From Desulfurispirillum indicum S5 (GTDB lineage: Bacteria > Chrysiogenota > Chrysiogenetes > Chrysiogenales > Chrysiogenaceae), in the NCBI RefSeq assembly GCF_000177635.2, contig NC_014836.1:2774001-2838000 (forward strand): a DNA stretch of 64,000 bases, read 5' to 3'. The notes beneath the pieces were generated by a model, which was not told the origin of the DNA, did no database searches, and saw nothing but the letters and a program-made list of their open reading frames with translations. Position numbers and translations under genes: made by a program. Below, piece by piece: positions 5,247 through 59,198 of the stretch. Position 1 is the first letter of the stretch. The number at the start of each line of letters is the position of its first letter.

Positions 5247-5453
5247 GCAGGCCGTTCCCCCCTGAGCCCGTCCGGTGAGTGCGACGCCTGGCTGGCAAGA
5301 CCCGAACGGGACACTCACAGGAAGTGAGTGGTCCGGCAGCACTGCAGGGATGCAGTGTCTGCAGGATCTCCAGGACAGGCGAGCCAACGATCCGGAAAAA
5401 CGGGCGTTCGGGGGGCGCGTTTTTGTGTCCTTTTTGCGCGGTCAAAAAGGGCA
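5247..5453 (-). repeat. R1 element fragment B (both ends lost)
   Basis: About 207 bp of the middle of R1, inverted relative to copy A, in the divergent cobO/typA promoter region. It keeps the hairpins ACTCAC-AGGAA-GTGAGT and CACTGC...GCAGTG region, the block GCGACGCCTGGCTGGCAAG, and TTTTTGCGCGGTCAAAAA. Neither terminal inverted repeat nor target duplication is present, so it is a decayed or recombined remnant. Promoters of cobO and typA must lie in or beside it. Confidence 0.8.
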
Positions 5454-5618
5454 AGAATTCGCTGATATGCCGTGGGGGATTCCCCATTTTCGCACTCTTC
5501 ACGCTTTCCTTTTTTTCAGGCCTATTTCATTTTGCCTGATGTTATGGTAAAGACTTGCCTTCCCGAATATCCGCGAAATACTTTACCAGATTCCAGACAC
5601 AACAGGAGAACGTCCCCC

Positions 5619-14232: not shown

Positions 14233-14637
14233 TTATCCATAAATTACGCCGATTTTCCTGTATGTGATTATGGCTGCCGCAAGACACGTCAACCCGTAGT
14301 GAGTGACCTCAAGCTTCTCAAAGCGCACATGAATCTTCCTGAAACGGTTGAACCAGGAAATAGATGCTTCCACTATCCAGCGCCTCGCCTTCTTTGATGG
14401 GTCACGCTTCTTGTCCTCGATCTCTTCTTTTCGCTGCTTTACATGGGGTATGTATCCGCGCTGAAGAATGCTGCTGAGCGCCTGCTTTCCCTTGTAGCCA
14501 CAATCTGCGCAAAGATGCTGCTCCTGCTCTGCAGGCTTCTCGAAGACTACGCCATCAAGAACAGCTTCAAGCTGGCTCACATCATGCCGGTTCGCTCCGG
14601 TTACGACGATGGACAACGGGACGCCACGACCGTCCAC
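14233..14637 (-). CDS. IS5-family transposase, C-terminal part (orfB)
   Basis: Carries the second half of the DDE catalytic domain: GRGVPLSIVVTGANRHD, then CADCGYKGK with the second catalytic Asp, and VEASISWFNRFRK with the catalytic Glu. It is normally made as a fusion with orfA through frameshifting on a poly-A run. In this copy the run has seven A, so the in-frame link would need a +1 or -2 shift rather than the usual -1. Identical in protein sequence to the orfB of copy 2. The first ATG shown is unlikely to be a true start. Confidence 0.85.
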   Translation of the reverse strand: MDGRGVPLSIVVTGANRHDVSQLEAVLDGVVFEKPAEQEQHLCADCGYKGKQALSSILQRGYIPHVKQRKEEIEDKKRDPSKKARRWIVEASISWFNRFRKIHVRFEKLEVTHYGLTCLAAAIITYRKIGVIYG

Positions 14638-15070
14638 CAGGACATGACGCTTGCTCCCGTTTTTTTCCCCGATCCGTCGGGTTCTTCCCTACGGTTTCAA
14701 GAGCCATTGGTGCTTTGTACATTCCGCCATCTATGCTTTGCCACTCCCAGGCAATTCCCTCCATCTCGTCGTACTCAGCCAGCCCTTGACGCCAAATAGC
14801 TTCGAATACACCGGCCTTACTCCACTCAATGAAGTACTTGTGCACGGCACTGGCGCAACCAAACTGCTCCTTGGGTATCGCTTTCCACTGACAACCGGTG
14901 CGCAGAACATAGACAATGCCGGAAAACGCCTTCCTGGGGTTAAGTCGCTTGCGCCCACCACCAGGCTTGCGCTTGTAGACCTTGTCAAGATCTCTTTGCT
15001 GGATTGGCAGCAAAGGCTCAACTCTTTGCCAGAAAGCATCTGAGACTTCCCATGATTGCACTTTAGACAT
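14582..15070 (-). CDS. IS5-family transposase, N-terminal part (orfA)
   Basis: 162-residue frame with the N-terminal DUF4096-like helix-turn-helix region (WQRVEPLLPIQQRD, FSGIVYVLRTGCQW) and the first catalytic Asp in QSIDGGMYKAP. After the NPTDRGKK segment encoded by the A-run the frame goes off into a nonsense tail, as expected for a frameshifted IS. The product alone would be inactive. Same as copy 2 up to the run. Confidence 0.85.
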   Translation of the reverse strand: MSKVQSWEVSDAFWQRVEPLLPIQQRDLDKVYKRKPGGGRKRLNPRKAFSGIVYVLRTGCQWKAIPKEQFGCASAVHKYFIEWSKAGVFEAIWRQGLAEYDEMEGIAWEWQSIDGGMYKAPMALETVGKNPTDRGKKREQASCPGGRSWRPVVHRRNRSEPA

Positions 15071-15793
15071 AAATCACCGCCATGAATGATCTCTCACTGA
15101 ATCATTCTATAGCAAACTATCATGATGGTCAATGATTATTTATGGACAAGCTCTTAGTCAATTATTTCCCCAGCACTTACCACGCGGAAGCAATATTGAT
15201 TCTGCATGCTTGACTCATCTGGTGTTCCACTTTTCGCCTCCGGATATTGTCCTTTTTGACCGCCCAAAAAGGACCCAAAAACGCGCCCCCCGAACGCCCG
15301 TTTATCCGGATCGCCTGCTCGCCTGTTCTGGAGATCCGGCAGACACTGCTTCCCTGCAGTGCTGCCGGACCACTCACTTCCTGTGAGTGTCCCGTTCGGG
15401 TCTTGCCAGCCAGGCATCGCACTCACCGGACGGGCTCAGGGGGGAACGGCCTGTTTCTGTCTCTCCCCCGTGTGCTGGCCCAGCCAGGACGCGCCGACTG
15501 GAACGCTATGGACCCGCAGGGTTGCCGCCACGAGGGCGGCAACCGCAAACCAAAAGCCACGGAGGGCGGTTGTTTGCGGTCCCCAGTTCCAGGCAAGCGG
15601 GCGGCTGAAAAGGACAGCACTGGGGGCCGCTTTTGCGCCACTTTGGGCGGGTCCAAAGTGGCAAAGAAACTCATAGACAAGGCGAGGGCAATGTCAAGCG
15701 ACGCAGTTGTGCGGAACCATTCCGCCATTTCAGCATATCATCTGGAACACGCAGACAACCTGTCGTTTCGGGGGTGCGAAACTTCAGTTTCAT

Positions 15794-16182: not shown

Positions 16183-16575
16183 ATGCCCGCAAAAGCCTCA
16201 CCAATGCGCATTCTGGTCGTCGAAGATGATGAAACCCTGCGCAATAACCTCACCACCATTCTCGCCCTTGAGGGATACAGCGTCGCCACTGCCGAAAATG
16301 GTCAACGTGGCATTGAGCGAGTATCCAAGGAAAAGTTTGATCTCATCATCACCGATATCTCTATGCCCAGGCTAGGTGGTGTTCAAATGATCGACAGCAT
16401 CCGCAAGCGCAGTTTTCTGAATGCAGATACTCCTATCATCGTTTTCAGCGGCACCATCAATATGGATGTAGCGCACGGGATCAAGGGTAAGGTCACCAAA
16501 GCCTTCTGCAAACCAGTTGAGTCCGTTGAAGTTCTCAACTACATTCGGATACACCTGGATCCGAATTTTTTGTAG
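16183..16575 (+). CDS. Single-domain response regulator (CheY-like receiver)
   Basis: 130-residue stand-alone receiver with no output domain. Acidic pocket VVEDDE (about 12-17), phospho-acceptor Asp in LIITDISMP (about 56), Ser/Thr-like switch in VFSGTI and conserved Lys in FCKPVE. The ATG at 16183 follows AGGAG. It is the first of four closely spaced regulator genes and probably acts as a phosphate carrier or sink in their phosphorelay. The frame extending back to 16021 is not supported. Confidence 0.92.
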   Translation: MPAKASPMRILVVEDDETLRNNLTTILALEGYSVATAENGQRGIERVSKEKFDLIITDISMPRLGGVQMIDSIRKRSFLNADTPIIVFSGTINMDVAHGIKGKVTKAFCKPVESVEVLNYIRIHLDPNFL

Positions 16576-16619
16576 CCATGCGATTCTCGCACGCGTCAAC
16601 CGGCACACAGGAGCACGCC

Positions 16620-18881
16620 ATGGCTGACACTTCCAAATCTCCGCCTCACATACTGTTTCTGCACGCATTTCATGCTTCTCCCTTTATTCAGCTGCTTTTC
16701 CGTGGCAATGGGGAGCTGGCGGAAGCCAGCGATGGAGCGCTGCGAGCGCTGAGATGCCAGCGGGAGAAGCTTCCCGAGCACCCATGGTTACGACAAACAG
16801 ACGCGCTTCAACTCAACAATGCCGTGAAAATGGTCGCCAGGACAGGCGAACCCGCTGTCACAGCAATCCAGTTGCCCCAAGGTGAAATTTTCCTGGAGTT
16901 GACGCAGGTATCCTTGACATCGCAGCAGACCTGCTGGGTTCTGGCAACACAGACTGAGCTCACAGACACCATTGCTTCGGGCAGCTCTCCAGGCTTGCAA
17001 AAGCGCAAAGAGGAGTTACTTGCCAACAGACAACGTTGGCAATTTGCGCTGGAAGGCACCAATATTGGCGTCTGGGACTGGAATATCCAGAGTTCAGAGG
17101 TCTATTTTTCTCCACGCTGGAAGGAAATTCTGGGTTACCGCGACCATGAACTTCCCAACTCCCTGGAACAGTGGCAACAGCGCATTCACCCTGATGACTA
17201 CCAGCGCGTCATGCAGGCCCACGAGCCTGCCTTCAGCAAGTCTGACCGGCTCTATCGATCGGAGTACAGACTGCGGCATCGCGACGGTAATTATCGCTGG
17301 ATCAGCTCCCAGGGAAAGGTCATGAGCTGGGCCAGAGACGGAACGCCCCTGCGCATGATCGGCACCCATGCCGATATCACGGAACGTAAAATCCTCGAAG
17401 AACAGCAGGAGCGCATGGTGCGCATCCTGGAAGCCACCACCGACAGCGTCAATATTGCCACCCCCGACGGCACCATGATCTTCTGGAATTCCCACGGACG
17501 CGCCATGGTCGGAGTTGAACCCGACGAAGACGTCACTGCCATCTCTTTTGACCTCTTCCACCCTCCAAAATCCCTGAAGATTCTCACCAGAGTTGCGATT
17601 CCCTCTGCCATCACCAATGGGATCTGGCAGGGCGAAAACGTCATAACCAACCGACACGGAAAAACCATTCCCGTTACACAGGTCATAATCGCCCATCGCG
17701 ACCAGCAGGGAAACCTGGAGTACCTTTCATCTATCATGCGCGACATGAGCCCCCAGAAAAAGGTTGAAGAAGCGTTGCGCAGCAGTGAACAACGGCTGTG
17801 GCGCCTGCTGGAGAGTACACCACTGGGAGTTGTGATCATAAACTCATGTGGCACCATTGAGTGGGTGAATCCGGCCATGTGTCACAAGGTGCATTATCAC
17901 TTTGAATCCCTGGCAGGGCACAGCCTGACAAAAATCCTGCCAGAAGAGAGCCGCATGGCCTGGCACCAGTGGTTCGAGCAGTTTGGCAACGCTCACACCA
18001 GCTCCAGCGAAGAGTGGAAATTCGTGCGACGTGGGGGCGAGAGCTTTCTGGCAGAGATTGTTTCAACGAGTTTTGCCGACACCAGCGGCCAGTGGCGCAT
18101 GGTCGCTTATGTCACAGACATAACAAAGCGCAAGCGCTTTGAAGATGAGCTGTTGCGCAGTCTGCGTCAACAGGAGGAACTCAATGAACTCAAAAGCACC
18201 TTTGTACAGATGGTCTCCCACGAGTTCCGCACTCCACTGGCTGGCATCATGGGCTCGGCGGAACTGTTGAAAAAATATTTGGAGCGCCTGAGCCCTGAGC
18301 GCCGGGATGAACATCTGGATACTATCCTCAGCGGGGTACAGCGAATGGTCTTCATGATGGAGGAGATCCTGGCTCTGGGCGCCATGGACTCCGGACAAAC
18401 GAACTTCAGCCCATCTCCTGTTGATCTGGTGGCCATGTGCCGCGCGATTCAGGATCAGCTGCACAGTATCTTCCCCGGCCAGCGCATCCAACTTGACTTC
18501 AGGGATATTCCGACTTGTGCCATGCTGGACGAATCCCTGCTGCACCACATCCTCACCAACCTGCTGAGTAATGCCCTGAAGTATTCGCCCGCCACATCAC
18601 CGGTACACTTTTCCATATTCAATACCACCAAAGAACTGTGTTTCCGCGTTACCGACTTCGGGATAGGTATTCCCGAAAGCGATCGCGGGCGCCTGTTTGA
18701 AGCTTTTTTTCGCGGCAGCAACGCCAGCCATATTCAGGGAACCGGCATCGGCATGATGATCGTCAAGCGCTGCCTCGACCTGCACAACGGCACCATCCAG
18801 ATACAGAGCAAACCGAACCAGGGCAGCACGTTCACCGTAACCATACCCCTATCCCAGTGTATTGCGGAGGAGAAATCATGA
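16620..18881 (+). CDS. Soluble multi-PAS sensor histidine kinase
   Basis: 753-residue cytosolic kinase without membrane segments. A divergent N-terminal region (1-125) is followed by about three PAS domains (about 135-255 with VWDWNIQSSEVYFSPRWKEILG, 265-385, 395-510). The HisKA H-box is VSHEFRTPLAGIMGSAELL and the HATPase motifs are LSNALKYSP, DFGIGIP and GTGIGM. I chose ATG 16620 with AGGAG upstream over the frame start at 16578. Its kinase core closely resembles that of the membrane kinase two genes downstream, suggesting duplication. Its stop overlaps the next start (ATGA). Confidence 0.92.
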   Translation: MADTSKSPPHILFLHAFHASPFIQLLFRGNGELAEASDGALRALRCQREKLPEHPWLRQTDALQLNNAVKMVARTGEPAVTAIQLPQGEIFLELTQVSLTSQQTCWVLATQTELTDTIASGSSPGLQKRKEELLANRQRWQFALEGTNIGVWDWNIQSSEVYFSPRWKEILGYRDHELPNSLEQWQQRIHPDDYQRVMQAHEPAFSKSDRLYRSEYRLRHRDGNYRWISSQGKVMSWARDGTPLRMIGTHADITERKILEEQQERMVRILEATTDSVNIATPDGTMIFWNSHGRAMVGVEPDEDVTAISFDLFHPPKSLKILTRVAIPSAITNGIWQGENVITNRHGKTIPVTQVIIAHRDQQGNLEYLSSIMRDMSPQKKVEEALRSSEQRLWRLLESTPLGVVIINSCGTIEWVNPAMCHKVHYHFESLAGHSLTKILPEESRMAWHQWFEQFGNAHTSSSEEWKFVRRGGESFLAEIVSTSFADTSGQWRMVAYVTDITKRKRFEDELLRSLRQQEELNELKSTFVQMVSHEFRTPLAGIMGSAELLKKYLERLSPERRDEHLDTILSGVQRMVFMMEEILALGAMDSGQTNFSPSPVDLVAMCRAIQDQLHSIFPGQRIQLDFRDIPTCAMLDESLLHHILTNLLSNALKYSPATSPVHFSIFNTTKELCFRVTDFGIGIPESDRGRLFEAFFRGSNASHIQGTGIGMMIVKRCLDLHNGTIQIQSKPNQGSTFTVTIPLSQCIAEEKS

Positions 18882-19978
18882 GACGAATTCTGCTGATCGA
18901 AGATGATCCGGTACTACGCCACAATATGGTAGAGCTGCTGACCCTGGAAAATTATGACGTCGATGACGCCCAGGACGGAGAGGAAGGGGTACGCAAGGCC
19001 CTCGAAAGCCATCATGATCTGGTTCTGTGCGATATCATGATGCCGAAAATGGATGGGTATCAGGTATTTGAAGCCCTCAAGAGCCATCCGCGCACCGCCA
19101 GCATTCCCTTCCTCTTCCTCACGGCCAAGGTTGACAAGGAAGACGTGCGACGAGGAATGGTGATGGGTGCCGATGACTATATCCAAAAACCCGCGCCTAT
19201 TGAGGAGCTGCTGCAGGCCATAGAGGTTCGTCTGCGGAAAAAACGCCTGCAGCTGGAGCAGGAGCAGCAACGTTCGGAGGCCCTGTGCTCAGAGCTGGCA
19301 TCGCGAATCCCCCATGAACTCATCACCCCTCTCAACAGTATCCTGGGATATGCAGAGCTGATTATTGAAGAAGAGCCGAGCAACCTCAGTCACCAGGAAA
19401 TCGTCCCCATGGCCTGCGCCATCCAAAGTGCTGCAGAACGCTTGATGGAAACCATCCACAAGTATCTGCTCTATAATGAGCTGCAGTTTCTGCGCTTCAC
19501 CGGCAACAGGAGCGGCTCCGGTGAGATACGAGACAACCTGTGCACTATAACCAGGCATATTGGCAGTGACGTTGCGAAAAAGTGGAAGCGCATCGAAGAC
19601 ATGGAAATTGCGCTTCCCGAATATCCCATTCACGCCTGCATTCCCTACTTTTCCCATGTGGTGCGACAGCTGACAGATAACGCCTGCAAGTTTTCTGCAG
19701 CAGGCAGCCCGATTACCTTGCAATGCCGCCTGACAGGTAATTCCATAACCCTGAGTGTCAGCGATCAGGGGCGAGGCATTCCCGCAGAAAACCTCGACCA
19801 ACTGGGAGCATTTCAGCAATTTGAACGCCATCATTACGAGCAGCAGGGTTCAGGACTGGGACTGGCAATTGTGAAACTTATTCTCCAGCACAGCCAGGGC
19901 TCTCTGGACATTCAGAGCATCCCTGACCAGGGGACAACCGTGACCCTGGGTTTTCCTGTCACTGTGGACGCACCATGA
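18878..19978 (+). CDS. Receiver-histidine kinase hybrid (REC-HisKA-HATPase)
   Basis: 366-residue cytosolic protein with an N-terminal receiver (IEDDP, phospho-Asp in LVLCDIMMPKMDGY, Lys in YIQKPAP) followed by a coiled segment rich in Gln/Glu. A kinase module follows: H-box RIPHELITPLNSILGYAELI, then N-box-like TDNACKFS, DQGRGIP and GSGLGLAIV. The receiver-first order means kinase activity may be controlled by phosphorylation from another kinase of the locus. The start ATG overlaps the previous stop and has GGAGGAG upstream; the end overlaps the next start by ATGA. All three genes are thus coupled. Confidence 0.92.
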   Translation: MRRILLIEDDPVLRHNMVELLTLENYDVDDAQDGEEGVRKALESHHDLVLCDIMMPKMDGYQVFEALKSHPRTASIPFLFLTAKVDKEDVRRGMVMGADDYIQKPAPIEELLQAIEVRLRKKRLQLEQEQQRSEALCSELASRIPHELITPLNSILGYAELIIEEEPSNLSHQEIVPMACAIQSAAERLMETIHKYLLYNELQFLRFTGNRSGSGEIRDNLCTITRHIGSDVAKKWKRIEDMEIALPEYPIHACIPYFSHVVRQLTDNACKFSAAGSPITLQCRLTGNSITLSVSDQGRGIPAENLDQLGAFQQFERHHYEQQGSGLGLAIVKLILQHSQGSLDIQSIPDQGTTVTLGFPVTVDAP

Positions 19979-22062
19979 AGCGCTCCATCGGGAACTCCCT
20001 GCCGCTCAAACTCATTATTATGGTTTTCTGCATCCTCAGCATTGCCATTCTGTGGGCAACTGGTCTGTGGCATATCACAAATTCCCGCTCCCAGAGCCTT
20101 CAGCAGGTCAAACAGAATCTCGACAACCTGACCTTTGCCCAGGAAAAATATGTCAAGCTGACCATCGGATCCATCGACATGATCATCCGGGAGACCCTGC
20201 ACGCCCTTTCAACAGAAGACCTTCTGGATAATACCGATTCTGGCAGGCAGCGCCTGCAGTCCGTCATTGAGCGTATACCCGAAGTATCCGGTATAAGTGT
20301 CATCGCCCCCTCAGGCCAGATAAGCCTCATCGCCTGGCGCAACCAGGAGCATCCCAGGCCGGATCTTGATGCCCTGGACCGAACGTACTTCACCATCCAC
20401 TCAGATCCCGGCCACGGCCTGTATATAGGCACACCCTTGCGGAGCAAGCTTTGCGGACAATGGTTCATTCCCATCAGTCGCGCTCAGCACACTGAAGATC
20501 ACCTGGATTTCGTAGTCATGGCTGCCATTGACTCCCAGGTATTCCAGCAGTACTTCGAGTCGCTGAACATCGGTCGCACCGGTACCATGGCACTCTGGCG
20601 CAAGCCACACGGCGAAGCCCTTCTGCACCATCCCTTTCGCGAAGAGCTTCAGGGTATCGCCATGGAAAACAACCCTGTCTTCCTTGACAATCGATGGTAT
20701 CACAATCCCCACGACAGCTTTCTGTGCCAGTTTCCAGACAGGCAGGACACCTGCTACGTCAGCTATCGCACGGTCGAACAGCTGCCCCTGGTGGTGAGCA
20801 CCACCATGCAGGCAGAGGAGTACCTGGCGCAGTGGCACCAGGACAGGCTGCTCACCATTGCGATCATGGTGCTCCTCTCAGCGGTACTCGGTGGCTTCGG
20901 ACTCTATATCCTGCGACAGCTTTCCCTGCAGGAAAAGACGGAAAAAGCTCTGCGCGCTTCGCGCAACAACTTCGAAATGCTGCTGGACAGCATGGACGCC
21001 ATTATTTATGTCTCCGACATACGCACCCATGAACTGATCTATCTCAACCAGATGGCCAGAAAACTCTATGGCGACGTCATCGGGGAAAAGTGCTGGAAGT
21101 ATATTCAGGAAAACCAGCAGCAACCCTGCCCATTCTGTCGCTATCACCTGCTGGTTGATGAAAATGGCCAACCCAATGGGGAAAATATTGTATGGGAAAA
21201 CCAGACACCTTCAACAGGACAATGGTTTCAGCGGCGGGATCGCTCCATTCACTGGAGTGATGGAAGAGTCGTGCACCTGCAGATTGCCAACGACATCACA
21301 GAACTCAAAGAAGCAGAAGCACAGATACGCGCCAACCTGGAAGAGGAGCGCAGTATAAATAAAATGAAAAACACCTTTATTCAGACCGTCTCCCATGAAT
21401 TCCGCACTCCATTGGCAGGCATCATGGGATCAGCTGAAATCCTGGAACGGTACTTTGAGCGCATCAGTGAGGAGCAGCGCGCACAGCATCTTCTCTCCAT
21501 CCGTAATGGAGTCAAGCGCATGGTTGCCATACTGGAAGATGTCCTGATCCTGGGCAGCCTGGATTCCGGGCAAACCGCCTTCAACCCCCAACCCCTCAAT
21601 CTGGTCAGCCTTTGTCATACCATCGTGACAGAAATGCAGCAGATCTACCGGGATCGTGAAATCCATATTGATGCCGGGCAGATTCCCAATAACATTGATG
21701 CCGACGCAAAACTTCTGCGCTACATCGTCACCAACCTGCTGAGCAATGCCCTGAAGTACTCACCCTTTGAGAAGCCGGTTCATCTGCAGATATCACAACA
21801 GCATGAGGAGTATATTATCGTCTGCGTCCGGGACGAAGGCATTGGCATACCGGAGGATGAACAAAAGAACATGTTTCAGTCCTTCTATCGCTGTTCCAAC
21901 ACCGAGGGCATCAAGGGAACCGGGCTGGGGCTGATCATCGTGCAGAAATGTGTCTTTCTTCATGGAGGAACCATAGAGTTCACCAGCAAGGCAGGGCAGG
22001 GAACCTCATTCTACTTCTACCTTCCCATCCATTCCCGCTGCCATATTCCCGCCACGCCCTGA
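19975..22062 (+). CDS. Membrane sensor histidine kinase with periplasmic Cache-like domain and PAS
   Basis: 695 residues. TM1 at about 11-31, a large periplasmic region (about 32-287) with Cache-like features (VSGISVIAPSGQISLIAWR, LDRTYFTIH), TM2 at about 290-312, PAS (about 330-445, with CPFCRYHL), HisKA with VSHEFRTPLAGIMGSAEIL, and HATPase with LSNALKYSPF, DEGIGIP and GTGLGLIIV. The H-box region is almost the same as in the PAS kinase at 16620, so both may phosphorylate the same receivers. It is the last gene of the coupled locus and is followed by a hairpin terminator. Confidence 0.9.
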   Translation: MKRSIGNSLPLKLIIMVFCILSIAILWATGLWHITNSRSQSLQQVKQNLDNLTFAQEKYVKLTIGSIDMIIRETLHALSTEDLLDNTDSGRQRLQSVIERIPEVSGISVIAPSGQISLIAWRNQEHPRPDLDALDRTYFTIHSDPGHGLYIGTPLRSKLCGQWFIPISRAQHTEDHLDFVVMAAIDSQVFQQYFESLNIGRTGTMALWRKPHGEALLHHPFREELQGIAMENNPVFLDNRWYHNPHDSFLCQFPDRQDTCYVSYRTVEQLPLVVSTTMQAEEYLAQWHQDRLLTIAIMVLLSAVLGGFGLYILRQLSLQEKTEKALRASRNNFEMLLDSMDAIIYVSDIRTHELIYLNQMARKLYGDVIGEKCWKYIQENQQQPCPFCRYHLLVDENGQPNGENIVWENQTPSTGQWFQRRDRSIHWSDGRVVHLQIANDITELKEAEAQIRANLEEERSINKMKNTFIQTVSHEFRTPLAGIMGSAEILERYFERISEEQRAQHLLSIRNGVKRMVAILEDVLILGSLDSGQTAFNPQPLNLVSLCHTIVTEMQQIYRDREIHIDAGQIPNNIDADAKLLRYIVTNLLSNALKYSPFEKPVHLQISQQHEEYIIVCVRDEGIGIPEDEQKNMFQSFYRCSNTEGIKGTGLGLIIVQKCVFLHGGTIEFTSKAGQGTSFYFYLPIHSRCHIPATP

Positions 22063-22150: not shown

Positions 22151-22807
22151 TCAGAAGCTGTAGGTCCAGCTCAGCTCGAGAACACTGTTGTCGCTGTCGT
22201 CATGGTCAACGGTGTAGAACAGGCCAAACTCATGGCTTGGAATAAATTCTTTGCTGATACCGATTTCCGAGGTTTTTTCGTCATTGTCGCCAATACCCAT
22301 AGTGTAGAGGTAGCTGGCAACCGCTACGCCCAGATCGTACTCAGCTCCCAGCTCCACATAGTCAGCATCAAGATCCGAGTCAAGGTTCATGTAGTAGTAG
22401 GCGCTCAGACCCAGCTCTTCTGTAGGAGCGAAGAGAACACCAGCATACACTTCATCGTTATCGTCAATATCGCTGTCCATGGGCATGGTCTTCAGGAAAC
22501 CCAGGTCGTAACCGATAGCTCCAGCTTCGCCTTCGTAACCAAAGGTAATTTCAAAATATGAATAATCAGAGAAATCCCAGTCGTCGTCCAGCAGATCATT
22601 GGTGAAATAGGTGGCACCAGCGTAAAATCCGGATTCATGGGAATACAGGGTGCCGACTTCCAGCTCAAGGCCGTTGTCGCCTTCGCTGGGAATACCGTAC
22701 GTGGCGCCTACATGGCTTTCCAGGGGCAGGGCAGAGGCAGAGGCTGCCAGAACAAGACTTCCGGCGAGAACTCCACCGATGATTCCAAGACGTTTTGCTT
22801 TCAACAT
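22151..22807 (-). CDS. Outer-membrane beta-barrel protein (TorF-like putative porin)
   Basis: 218-residue exported protein. A signal peptide (GGVLAGSLVLAASASA, cleavage near residue 28) is followed by repeated amphipathic strands with alternating aromatic residues and acidic turns (for example DDDWDFSDYSYFEI and DSDIDDNDE). It ends in WTYSF, the C-terminal Phe signature of barrels inserted by BamA. The pattern YVELGAEYDLG resembles the TorF putative porin group, but that is a weak assignment. The start ATG has AAGGAGAAGG upstream; the frame start six residues earlier lacks a signal. The many acidic loops suggest cation preference, which is inference. Confidence 0.75.
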   Translation of the reverse strand: MLKAKRLGIIGGVLAGSLVLAASASALPLESHVGATYGIPSEGDNGLELEVGTLYSHESGFYAGATYFTNDLLDDDWDFSDYSYFEITFGYEGEAGAIGYDLGFLKTMPMDSDIDDNDEVYAGVLFAPTEELGLSAYYYMNLDSDLDADYVELGAEYDLGVAVASYLYTMGIGDNDEKTSEIGISKEFIPSHEFGLFYTVDHDDSDNSVLELSWTYSF

Positions 22808-23075
22808 AACCTTCTCCTTTTGCAAAATGGGCTGTTACCGGGCGTATTGCCTTTCCCTATGGCATACAGCAATAAGCATGCCAGAAAAGAACAGGGGGCC
22901 CTTTGCCGTGGCTAAGATTATGCGCCTAACCTACGCCTTGTCAAGGAAATGTTGCGTTATTGCAAGAGGGAGGAAAAGAAATCCCAGGCTTCGCCAGCCC
23001 CGAGGAGAAAAATGACTTTGACGACAGCGCACAGCGGGTGCGCAAAAAATGTGCACAACTTTAGTCGGACGACCA

Positions 23076-31769: not shown

Positions 31770-31775
31770 TGAATA

Positions 31776-32439
31776 CTGAAGTTTCGCATCCCCGAAACGG
31801 CAGGTTGTCGGCGCTGACCCTGATGTCACGCTGCAATGGCCAAAATGGTTCTACACAGACTGGGTTGCTTGACATTGCCCTCACCCTGTTTATGAGTTTA
31901 TTTTGCCACTTTTTACCCGCAAAAAGTGGCGCAAAAGCGGCCCCCAGTGCTGTCCTTTTCAGCCGTCCGCTTGCCTGGAACTGGGGACCGCAAACAACCG
32001 CCTTCCCTGGCTTTTGGTTTGCGGTTGCCGCCCTCGTGGCGGCAACCCTGCGGGTCCATAGCGTTCCAGTCAGCGCGTCCTGGCTGGGCCAGCACACGGG
32101 GGAGAAACAGAAACAGGCCGTTCCCCCCTGAGCCCGTCCGGTGAGTGCGACGCCTGGCTGGCAAGACCCGAACGGGACACCTGCAGGAAGCAGGTGGTCC
32201 GGCAGCACTGCAGGGATGCAGTGTCTGTCGGATCTCCAGAACAGGCGAGCAGGCGATCCGGAAAAACGGGCGTTCGGGGGCGCGTTTTTGTGTCCTTTTG
32301 CGCGGTCAAAAAGGACAATATCCGGAAACAAAAAGTGGAATACCAGATAAGTCAAGCATTCAAAATCAATACGGTTTCCGCGAGATAAACGCCCGTATAA
32401 TAACAGCTTAACTCAAGACAGCAAGGTGCGCAAGTTGAG
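31776..32439 (-). mobile_element. R1 element copy D (full length)
   Basis: 664 bp, inverted relative to copy A. Plus-strand ends are CTGAAGTTTCGCATC at 31776 and the complement of CTCAACTTGCGCACC at 32439. Perfect 6 bp direct repeats TGAATA flank it (31770-31775, 32440-32445). The hairpin at 31905-31930 is GCCACTTTTT/AAAAAGTGGC and that at 32179-32195 is ACCTGC-AGGAA-GCAGGT; both stems differ from other copies by compensating changes. It separates addB from addA. Confidence 0.88.
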
Positions 32440-35509: not shown

Positions 35510-35549
35510 TATTGAGCCTGTTCACGGAAAATGTACCGCGAAACGCCCC
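35510..35549. repeat. 40 bp direct repeat, left copy
   Basis: Identical to 36046-36085 (starts TATTGAGCCTGTTCACGG, ends GCCCC). It flanks R1 copy E. The right copy begins exactly at the R1 terminal repeat, while the left copy joins the truncated R1 end through shared GCCCC. It looks like an unusually long target duplication. Confidence 0.9.
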
Positions 35550-36045
35550 CCAGTGCTGTCCTTTTCAGCCGTCCGCTTGCCTGGAACTGGGAACCGTAAA
35601 CAGCCGCCCTCCGTGGCTTTTGGTTTGCGGTTGCCGCCCTCGTGGCGGCAACCCTGCGGGTCCATCGCGTTCCAGTCTTCGCGTCCTGGCTGGGCCAGCA
35701 CACGGGGGAGAGGCAGAGGAAAGCCGTTCCCCCCTGAGCCCGTCCGGTGAGTGCGACGCCTGGCTGGCAAGACCCGAACGGGACACTCACAGGAAGTGAG
35801 TGGTCCGGCAGCACTGCAGGGAAGCAGTGTCTGTCGGATCTCCAGAACAGGCGAGCAGGCGAGCCGGAAAAACGGGCGTTCGGGGGGCGCGTTTTGCGTC
35901 CTTTTGCGCGGTCAAAAAGGACAATATCCGGAAACAAAAAGTGGAATACCAGATAAGTCAAGCATTCAAAATCAATACAGTTTCCGCGCGATAAATGTCA
36001 GAATAATAACACCTTAACCTAAGACAACAAGATGCGAAACTTGAG
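35550..36045 (-). mobile_element. R1 element copy E (one end truncated, 40 bp target duplication)
   Basis: About 496 bp, same orientation as copy D. The right end is intact and is the complement of CTCAAGTTTCGCATC. The plus-strand left part (terminal repeat, GCCACTTTTT hairpin region) is absent; similarity to copies A and D begins at CCAGTGCTGTCC. Hairpins ACTCAC-AGGAA-GTGAGT and CACTGC-AGGGAA-GCAGTG are kept. It sits between addB and the phospholipase D gene. Confidence 0.85.
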
Positions 36046-58567: not shown

Positions 58568-59198
58568 CTGAAGTTTCGCATCTTGTTGTCTTGAATTAAG
58601 ACATTATTACTCTGATGTTTACCACGCGGAAACAGTATTGAAGTATTGACTTTTCATGCTTGACTCATCTGGTATCTTTTTTCGCTTCCGGATATTGTCC
58701 TTTTTGACCGCGCAAAAAGGACTCAAAAACGCGCCCCCCGAACACCCGTTCTTCCGGCTCGCCTGCTCGCCTGTTCTGGAGATCCGGCAGACACTGCTTC
58801 CCTGCAGTGCTGCCGAACCACTCACTTCCTGTGAGTGTCCCTTCGGGTCTTACCAGCCAGGCGTCGCACTCACCGGACGGGCTCAGGGGGGAACGGCCTG
58901 CTTCTGCCTCTCCCCCGTGTGCTTTCCCAGCCAGGACGCGCCGACTGTCAGGTTGCTGAAAAGCCAGGGAAGGCGGTTGTTTGCGGCCCCCAGTTCCAGG
59001 CAAGCGGACGGCTGAAAAGGACAGCACCGGGGGTCGCTTCCCAGCCACTTTGGGCGGATCCAAAGTGGTAAAATAAACTCATAAACAAAGTGAGGGTAAT
59101 GTCAAACGACGCCGTCTGCGAAAAACCATTTCCGCCATTCCAGCATGGCATCAGTGTCAGCGCAGACAACCTGCCGTTTCAGGGGCGCGAAAGTTGAG
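58568..59198 (+). mobile_element. R1 element copy F (full length)
   Basis: 631 bp with ends CTGAAGTTTCGCATC and the complement of CTCAACTTTCGCGCC, flanked by perfect 6 bp repeats CTCGCT (58562-58567, 59199-59204). It lacks the GGTTGCCGCC hairpin and has instead GTCAGGTTGCTGAAAAG, a subtype shared with fragment G. Hairpins TCCTTTTTG/CAAAAAGGA, CACTGC/GCAGTG, ACTCAC/GTGAGT and GCCACTTTGG/CCAAAGTGG are kept. It splits the GTPase and ATPase genes of one apparent operon. Confidence 0.88.

Follow-up and report, generated by a model that had tools for sequence, protein, structure and literature searches.

A duplicated PAS kinase beside a small receiver-kinase in Desulfurispirillum indicum S5: a Chrysiogenota version of a recurring signalling module

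Desulfurispirillum indicum S5 is a sediment bacterium with a single-contig genome of 2,928,377 bp, of which bases 2774001–2838000 were analyzed here (the window, 64,000 nucleotides; positions below count from its first base). A signal transduction locus was located at 16183–22062 of the window, and it comprised four open reading frames (ORFs) on the plus strand in the order REC1, A, C and D. The first-pass annotation had described these as a receiver, a soluble PAS kinase, a receiver-kinase hybrid and a membrane kinase, three of them linked by ATGA overlaps. The ORFs and Pfam confirmed the four genes, and two overlaps joined A, C and D. The features were as follows.

16183..16575, plus strand: REC1, single-domain receiver, 130 amino acids (Pfam Response_reg, 4.5e-23)
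16620..18881, plus strand: kinase A, soluble, three PAS domains, HisKA and HATPase, 753 amino acids (Pfam)
18213..18263, plus strand: H box of kinase A, VSHEFRTPLAGIMGSAE
18878..18881, plus strand: ATGA overlap of the A stop and the C start
18878..19978, plus strand: kinase C, N-terminal REC, HisKA and HATPase, 366 amino acids (Pfam)
19031–19033, plus strand: codon of Asp52 in the C receiver (numbering from the translation, role by analogy)
19313–19315, plus strand: codon of His146 in C (numbering from the translation, role by analogy)
19975..19978, plus strand: ATGA overlap of the C stop and the D start
19975..22062, plus strand: kinase D, 695 amino acids, with a transmembrane segment, a dCache-like periplasmic region, a second transmembrane segment, a PAS-like region, HisKA and HATPase
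21388..21438, plus strand: H box of kinase D, VSHEFRTPLAGIMGSAE, the same as in A

In REC1, Asp58 (codon 16354–16356) is the expected phosphoacceptor, judging from its place in the fold. The start of kinase A at 16620 was favoured over 16578 by a sister-genus genome of the same family (G001). A, C and D each carried the HisKA and HATPase domains and the phosphoacceptor histidine of ordinary histidine kinases. C was not a classical hybrid histidine kinase, since its receiver was N-terminal and not C-terminal to the kinase. The Pfam matches on D were dCache_1_like, HisKA and HATPase, and its PAS-like region was not called. Hydropathy gave two membrane-like stretches (in windows starting at residues 13 and 295) in D alone of the four proteins. 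The periplasmic fold of D was modelled from the single sequence with a mean predicted local distance difference test score of 34.6, and the model was not used. The PAS-like region of D also contained a cysteine cluster at ~21091–21138 (C-W-K-Y...PCPFC; CWMY...PCPFC in the sister genus), which may bind a metal or serve in redox sensing. Pfam detected no HPt domain in the four proteins, which were the only part of the genome searched for it, and the term phosphorelay used in the first-pass annotation was thus not borne out in the strict four-step His-Asp-His-Asp sense. Among the neighbours of the four genes in the window, Pfam detected no adjoining DNA-binding regulator gene.

The H boxes of the first and last kinases had been called nearly identical. 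They were exactly so: all 17 residues of VSHEFRTPLAGIMGSAE were shared by A, D and both sister-genus orthologues. The other kinases of the same genome reached at best 11 of 17 (28 alignable cores out of 40 stretches), which ruled out a chance or generic likeness as the source of the identity. Recent gene conversion was also ruled out, because 7 of the 17 codons differed between A and D; every change was synonymous. This pattern indicates that a putative docking helix has been under purifying selection, and it argues against a fresh copy. In large part, the motif is the signature of a whole clade (for example SHEFRTPLTTILGSAE in locus L257), and the motif alone is therefore no proof of duplication.

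That proof was supplied by the phylogeny. A first tree, built from 126 kinase cores, grouped A and D with the orthologues of the sister genus (A' and D') in one clade (100/97), which was located next to cyanobacterial kinases. The same A/D clade was recovered in a second tree of 40 rows with a support of 96, and A and D were mutual closest kinases in both trees. The duplication claimed for the first and last kinases was thus upheld. The two proteins aligned with 38% identity across 395 columns, and their kinase cores were 49% identical. When D was used as the query against its own genome, the match to A was at 5.8e-77, and that to the kinase ranked second was at 1.5e-35. Within the clade of the 126-core tree, A paired with A' and D with D', indicating that the duplication predates the split of the two genera. 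Since helix 1 around the histidine is invariant, it is plausible that A and D have a shared partner.

The same gene order was found in the sister genus as far as the receiver of C. G001 kept REC1, A and C in this order, with identities of 88, 73 and 88% (the last for the C receiver). At a contig end, the C gene then continued as a frame resembling a transposase, IS256-like by our reading of the sequence (IS, insertion sequence). A fragment of the D orthologue, 76% identical and starting at residue 109, was located beside an IS21-type IstB at another contig end. Residues 146–366 of C and 1–108 of D were not found in the G001 assembly. The pieces of the interrupted operon were as follows.

L029, 13767–15241, and L048, 14395–17108: pieces of the interrupted sister-genus operon

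Thus, REC1 and A were intact in G001, and C and D were broken. Upstream of the operon in G001, on the opposite strand, there were an NIT-HAMP-GGDEF gene and a protoglobin-EAL gene. The latter had an 81% identical relative elsewhere in the window genome, at 1970214, and therefore the upstream neighbourhood was not conserved. No output regulator was found among the neighbours of the G001 locus. In a third genome of the family (G002), D had no close relative, with a best match of 33%.

These interruptions could be taken as a sign of a decaying locus, in which loss of the output gene has left behind kinases of little function. The sister-genus copy was cut by IS256-like and IS21-like elements, its middle part was not found in the assembly, and an IS5-like element was located upstream of the locus in the window. 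However, all four frames in the window were open, their catalytic motifs were present and the H box had changed only synonymously. We therefore regard decay as highly improbable.

Relatives of the locus were collected by a scan of 84,980 genomes with exact peptide patterns for the kinase core, from which 80 of 101 loci were kept. None of the 80 was an orthologue; the own genome or very near genomes were possibly excluded from the scan. In three of them (L053, L054, and L060), a C-like receiver-kinase adjoined the kinase, and these three kinases fell in a larger A/D clade of the 126-core tree. The kinases of L051, L052, and L055 also fell in this larger clade, and no C-like receiver-kinase was seen next to them. 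L102 and L126 contained receiver-kinases, and their kinases lay outside the larger clade.

When a profile built from C and its counterparts in L053, L054, and L060 was applied to eight of the genomes, 17 matches reached 270 bits or more, and the next one stood at 193; all but a few of the 17 were full length. A subfamily profile was then trained on 13 of the 17 matches, with C and the L053, L054, and L060 proteins excluded. It scored C at 392 bits, L054 at 396, L060 at 356 and L053 at 258. The nine other receiver-histidine kinases (REC-HKs) that were scored reached 194 bits or less, except L102a (490), which belonged to the training set itself by way of locus L172. C thus belongs to a distinct REC-HK subfamily. 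A REC-HK of G057 was intermediate (275 bits); it was located beside a leucyl-tRNA synthetase-like gene and had no kinase neighbour. Loci of the L033 type, which combine a REC-HK, dCache kinases and pilus genes, were rejected as homologous modules, as three of their REC-HKs (two of L033 and one of L034) scored only 176–193 bits. The domains of L033 were assigned by Pfam, and L030, L034 and L035 resemble it. We presume these four loci to be of a Deferribacterota type, a name guessed from their kinship within one phylum.

The C-type subfamily was detected at E 1e-75 or better in 36 of 146 genomes sampled from the cyanobacterial phylum of G063, the genome that contains L055. Of 48 listed copies, 40 were inspected (5 came from genomes already covered and 3 were left out). 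A kinase of the A/D clade (at least 180 bits with the A/D profile) was found within about 5 kb of 24 of the 40 copies, one at 4.5 kb and the others within about 2.1 kb. Such kinases numbered 98 in 20 genomes (about 112 Mb, cut-off E 1e-50 or about 172 bits), that is ~0.9 per Mb, and chance alone would place one nearby in about 0.5 of 40 loci. L282 was counted as negative because its receiver-kinase frame was lost in the ORF filter. Domain labels in the 40 loci were derived by BLAST with a few query domains; the Pfam check covered only a part of them, including three REC-GGDEF-EAL or REC-EAL proteins and two REC-HisKA proteins. A REC-GGDEF-EAL or REC-EAL neighbour was found within 3 kb of ten of the 40 copies. 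In L253 (5054–5767) and L256 (5470–6183), module neighbours carried REC and HisKA with the ATPase uncalled, and these could be phosphotransfer proteins.

The window contained both constituents of this module, a receiver-kinase of the C subfamily and flanking A/D-clade kinases. No adjacent output protein, which is part of only some of the loci and is not strictly defining, was found beside the window locus or the G001 locus. The locus therefore represents, in the Chrysiogenota, a module that recurs mainly in cyanobacteria; here the kinase is duplicated, and no output gene adjoins the module. The combination of a PAS kinase and a small receiver-kinase was not described as one module in the open-licence PubMed Central titles and abstracts that were searched, which are weak evidence on this point.

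Comparison with individual loci supported the kinship. The cyanobacterial loci L165, L257, L249, and L254 had kinases of the same clade (SHEFRTPL..S.E type) and receiver-kinases of the same subfamily. L165 encoded REC, PAS kinase, REC-GGDEF-EAL and REC-HK in one direction; it had one such kinase and an output protein, whereas the window had two kinases and no output protein. The Sericytochromatia locus L053 (REC, PAS kinase, REC, REC-HK, LuxR-type regulator) began with a receiver followed by a PAS kinase and continued to a REC-HK as in the window. Unlike the window, it had an extra receiver, the LuxR-type regulator and no second kinase, and the HATPase of its REC-HK was not called by Pfam. L053 ended in its LuxR-type regulator, and L054 began with an AraC-type regulator.

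These loci changed the meaning of the missing output. The first-pass annotation had stated that the locus has no DNA-binding output, and this held in the window and in the sister genus. It was not intrinsic to the module, as homologous loci carried LuxR, AraC and GGDEF-EAL or EAL outputs; DNA-binding regulators occurred only in distant homologues and not in the one orthologue. Loss of an output gene in the window is possible from this distribution. Likewise, the unusual closed circuit proposed earlier retained its doubled kinase and its lack of an adjacent output, and its singularity was weakened by its place among variants of a recurring module. We prefer to see it as a module that has lost its output partner or has this partner located elsewhere.

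The receivers gave some indication of how such a module may be wired. The C receiver was 44–51% identical to the REC-HK receivers of module loci (51% to that of L165) and 45–50% identical to the receivers of cyanobacterial REC-GGDEF-EAL, REC-EAL and single-REC proteins (50% to the GGDEF-EAL protein of L257), but only 31% identical to REC1. This likeness among the module receivers suggests one shared kinase surface. REC1 was 24–33% identical to the receivers of related modules.

Thus, we speculated, with moderate confidence, that the locus is the recurring module with a duplicated input, in which A and D converge on the C receiver and possibly on REC1. We infer the following scheme of phosphotransfer, gating and output from the comparisons above. 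In the module in general, the PAS kinase would phosphorylate the set of like receivers in its locus, and one member of this set would gate the small kinase C. The two PAS kinases produced by duplication in this lineage are a soluble A that may sense a cytoplasmic signal and a membrane-bound D that may sense a periplasmic signal through its dCache region. Both would offer the identical helix-1 docking surface and would phosphorylate or dephosphorylate the C receiver, and they may act on REC1 as well. Whether or not the C receiver is phosphorylated would in turn gate the kinase half of C. Output would pass through REC1 or through a receiver from another locus, and it would more probably involve contact with a protein than direct DNA binding. 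The most likely role of A and D would then be to integrate cytoplasmic and periplasmic signals on the C receiver, on REC1 or on both. That the Chrysiogenaceae dropped a dedicated output and doubled the kinase with the docking helix strictly conserved, and so converted a signalling chain into a two-input integrator whose exportable state lies only in the stand-alone receiver, is a tentative and rather doubtful extension of this scheme.

Several observations weigh against the main scheme. Sixteen of the 40 cyanobacterial C-type copies had no A/D-clade kinase detected nearby, and C-type kinases can thus stand alone. The two single-REC receivers and the LuxR regulator of L053 were only 26–30% identical to the C receiver, which speaks against one common surface there. 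At the third position past the histidine, C had Ile, where the others mostly had Arg, and a degenerate nucleotide-binding motif was read in some C relatives; the activity of the kinase half of C is therefore not assured. In the G001 operon, gene C is broken by the IS256-like element and gene D by the IS21-type one, and the full circuit may therefore be dispensable.

The pattern of breakage in G001 also bears on another scheme, a self-contained circuit ending in REC1, in which A, D and C would all feed REC1 and the latter would act by protein binding. CheY and DivK are single receivers that act through protein binding. REC1 is the first gene and has kept its Asp and Lys residues; its identity between the genera (88%) exceeded that of the kinases (73 and 76%), and it remained intact with A in the sister genome, where C and D were broken. 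Action by protein contact is also the mode given for single-domain receivers in a review (PMC12471899). However, slow evolution is general for receiver domains, and the identity of REC1 to related-module receivers (24–33%) was low. We consider a circuit ending in REC1 somewhat unlikely.

The remaining scheme places the true output outside the locus: REC1 or the C receiver would be a phosphate sink that tunes the kinases toward an unlinked regulator. The genome contained 83 receiver matches, so unlinked partners exist, and related loci carried DNA-binding or cyclic di-GMP (c-di-GMP) outputs. However, no receiver of the own genome stood out, the best being 40% identical to the C receiver among the matches listed. 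Two REC-GGDEF-EAL proteins of the own genome were examined as the missing output.

L289, 2470–4203: REC-GGDEF-EAL protein, stands alone
L290, 3465–5102: REC-GGDEF-EAL protein, beside its own kinase

Their GGDEF-EAL parts were read from EAL matches and from the sequence. Their receivers were 29–35% identical to the C receiver, and neither was supported as the output. A phosphate sink is thus improbable.

Convergence of A and D on the C receiver has parallels in known systems. Hik41 of Synechocystis is, we presume, a receiver-kinase of the C type. Spo0F hands phosphate via Spo0B to Spo0A; neither a Spo0B-like phosphotransferase nor a DNA-binding regulator was seen in the window locus. In the salt and H2O2 responses of Synechocystis, the membrane kinase Hik16 and the soluble kinase Hik41 act jointly ahead of a single regulator (PMC3264485). 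The Hik16-Hik41-Rre17 system pairs a membrane and a soluble kinase as the window does and has its regulator Rre17 present; the likeness noted here is one of wiring. Many kinases (KinA–KinE) feed the one receiver Spo0F (PMC12471899), and the same logic of several kinases to one receiver is proposed for the window.

Being small and self-contained, the locus could be used to test if sensor kinases that arose by duplication can retain one docking surface and yet differ in the signal that they sense. A further point of interest is the recurrent module itself, a PAS kinase with a small receiver-kinase, which c-di-GMP enzymes often accompany. At present, the biological return is modest.

The guanine-plus-cytosine content of the locus was 0.536, compared with 0.588 (standard deviation 0.034) for 1-kb stretches of the window, which is at most suggestive of a foreign origin. 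The neighbouring genes were as follows.

Upstream: an IS5-like element, and a dCache kinase on the opposite strand
Downstream, opposite strand: a gene at 22151–22825 (minus strand), then CydC

The IS5-like transposase (14233–15070, minus strand) consisted of two overlapping frames, a DUF4096 part and a catalytic part, and was possibly made by a frameshift or broken. The gene at 22151–22825 had no Pfam or NCBIfam match, and its sequence resembled that of an outer-membrane beta-barrel with a signal peptide in front.

Between the IS5-like transposase and REC1, there was a copy of a dispersed repeat of ~615 bp. Its copies in the window were located at 15174–15790, 31770–32388 (minus strand), 35537–35997 (minus strand) and 58619–59198, with partial copies at 5248–5454 and 826–1506. 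Genome-wide, at least 58 matched pieces were found, mostly of 82–96% identity (40 of 112 candidates scored). Two other genomes of the family contained one and four short weak pieces, and the repeat was absent from eight further relatives. It had no Rfam match; its predicted RNA fold was strong, with an energy of -277.8 kcal/mol (z -4.88, 20 shuffles). Some copies appeared to be split by inserts of ~130 bp.

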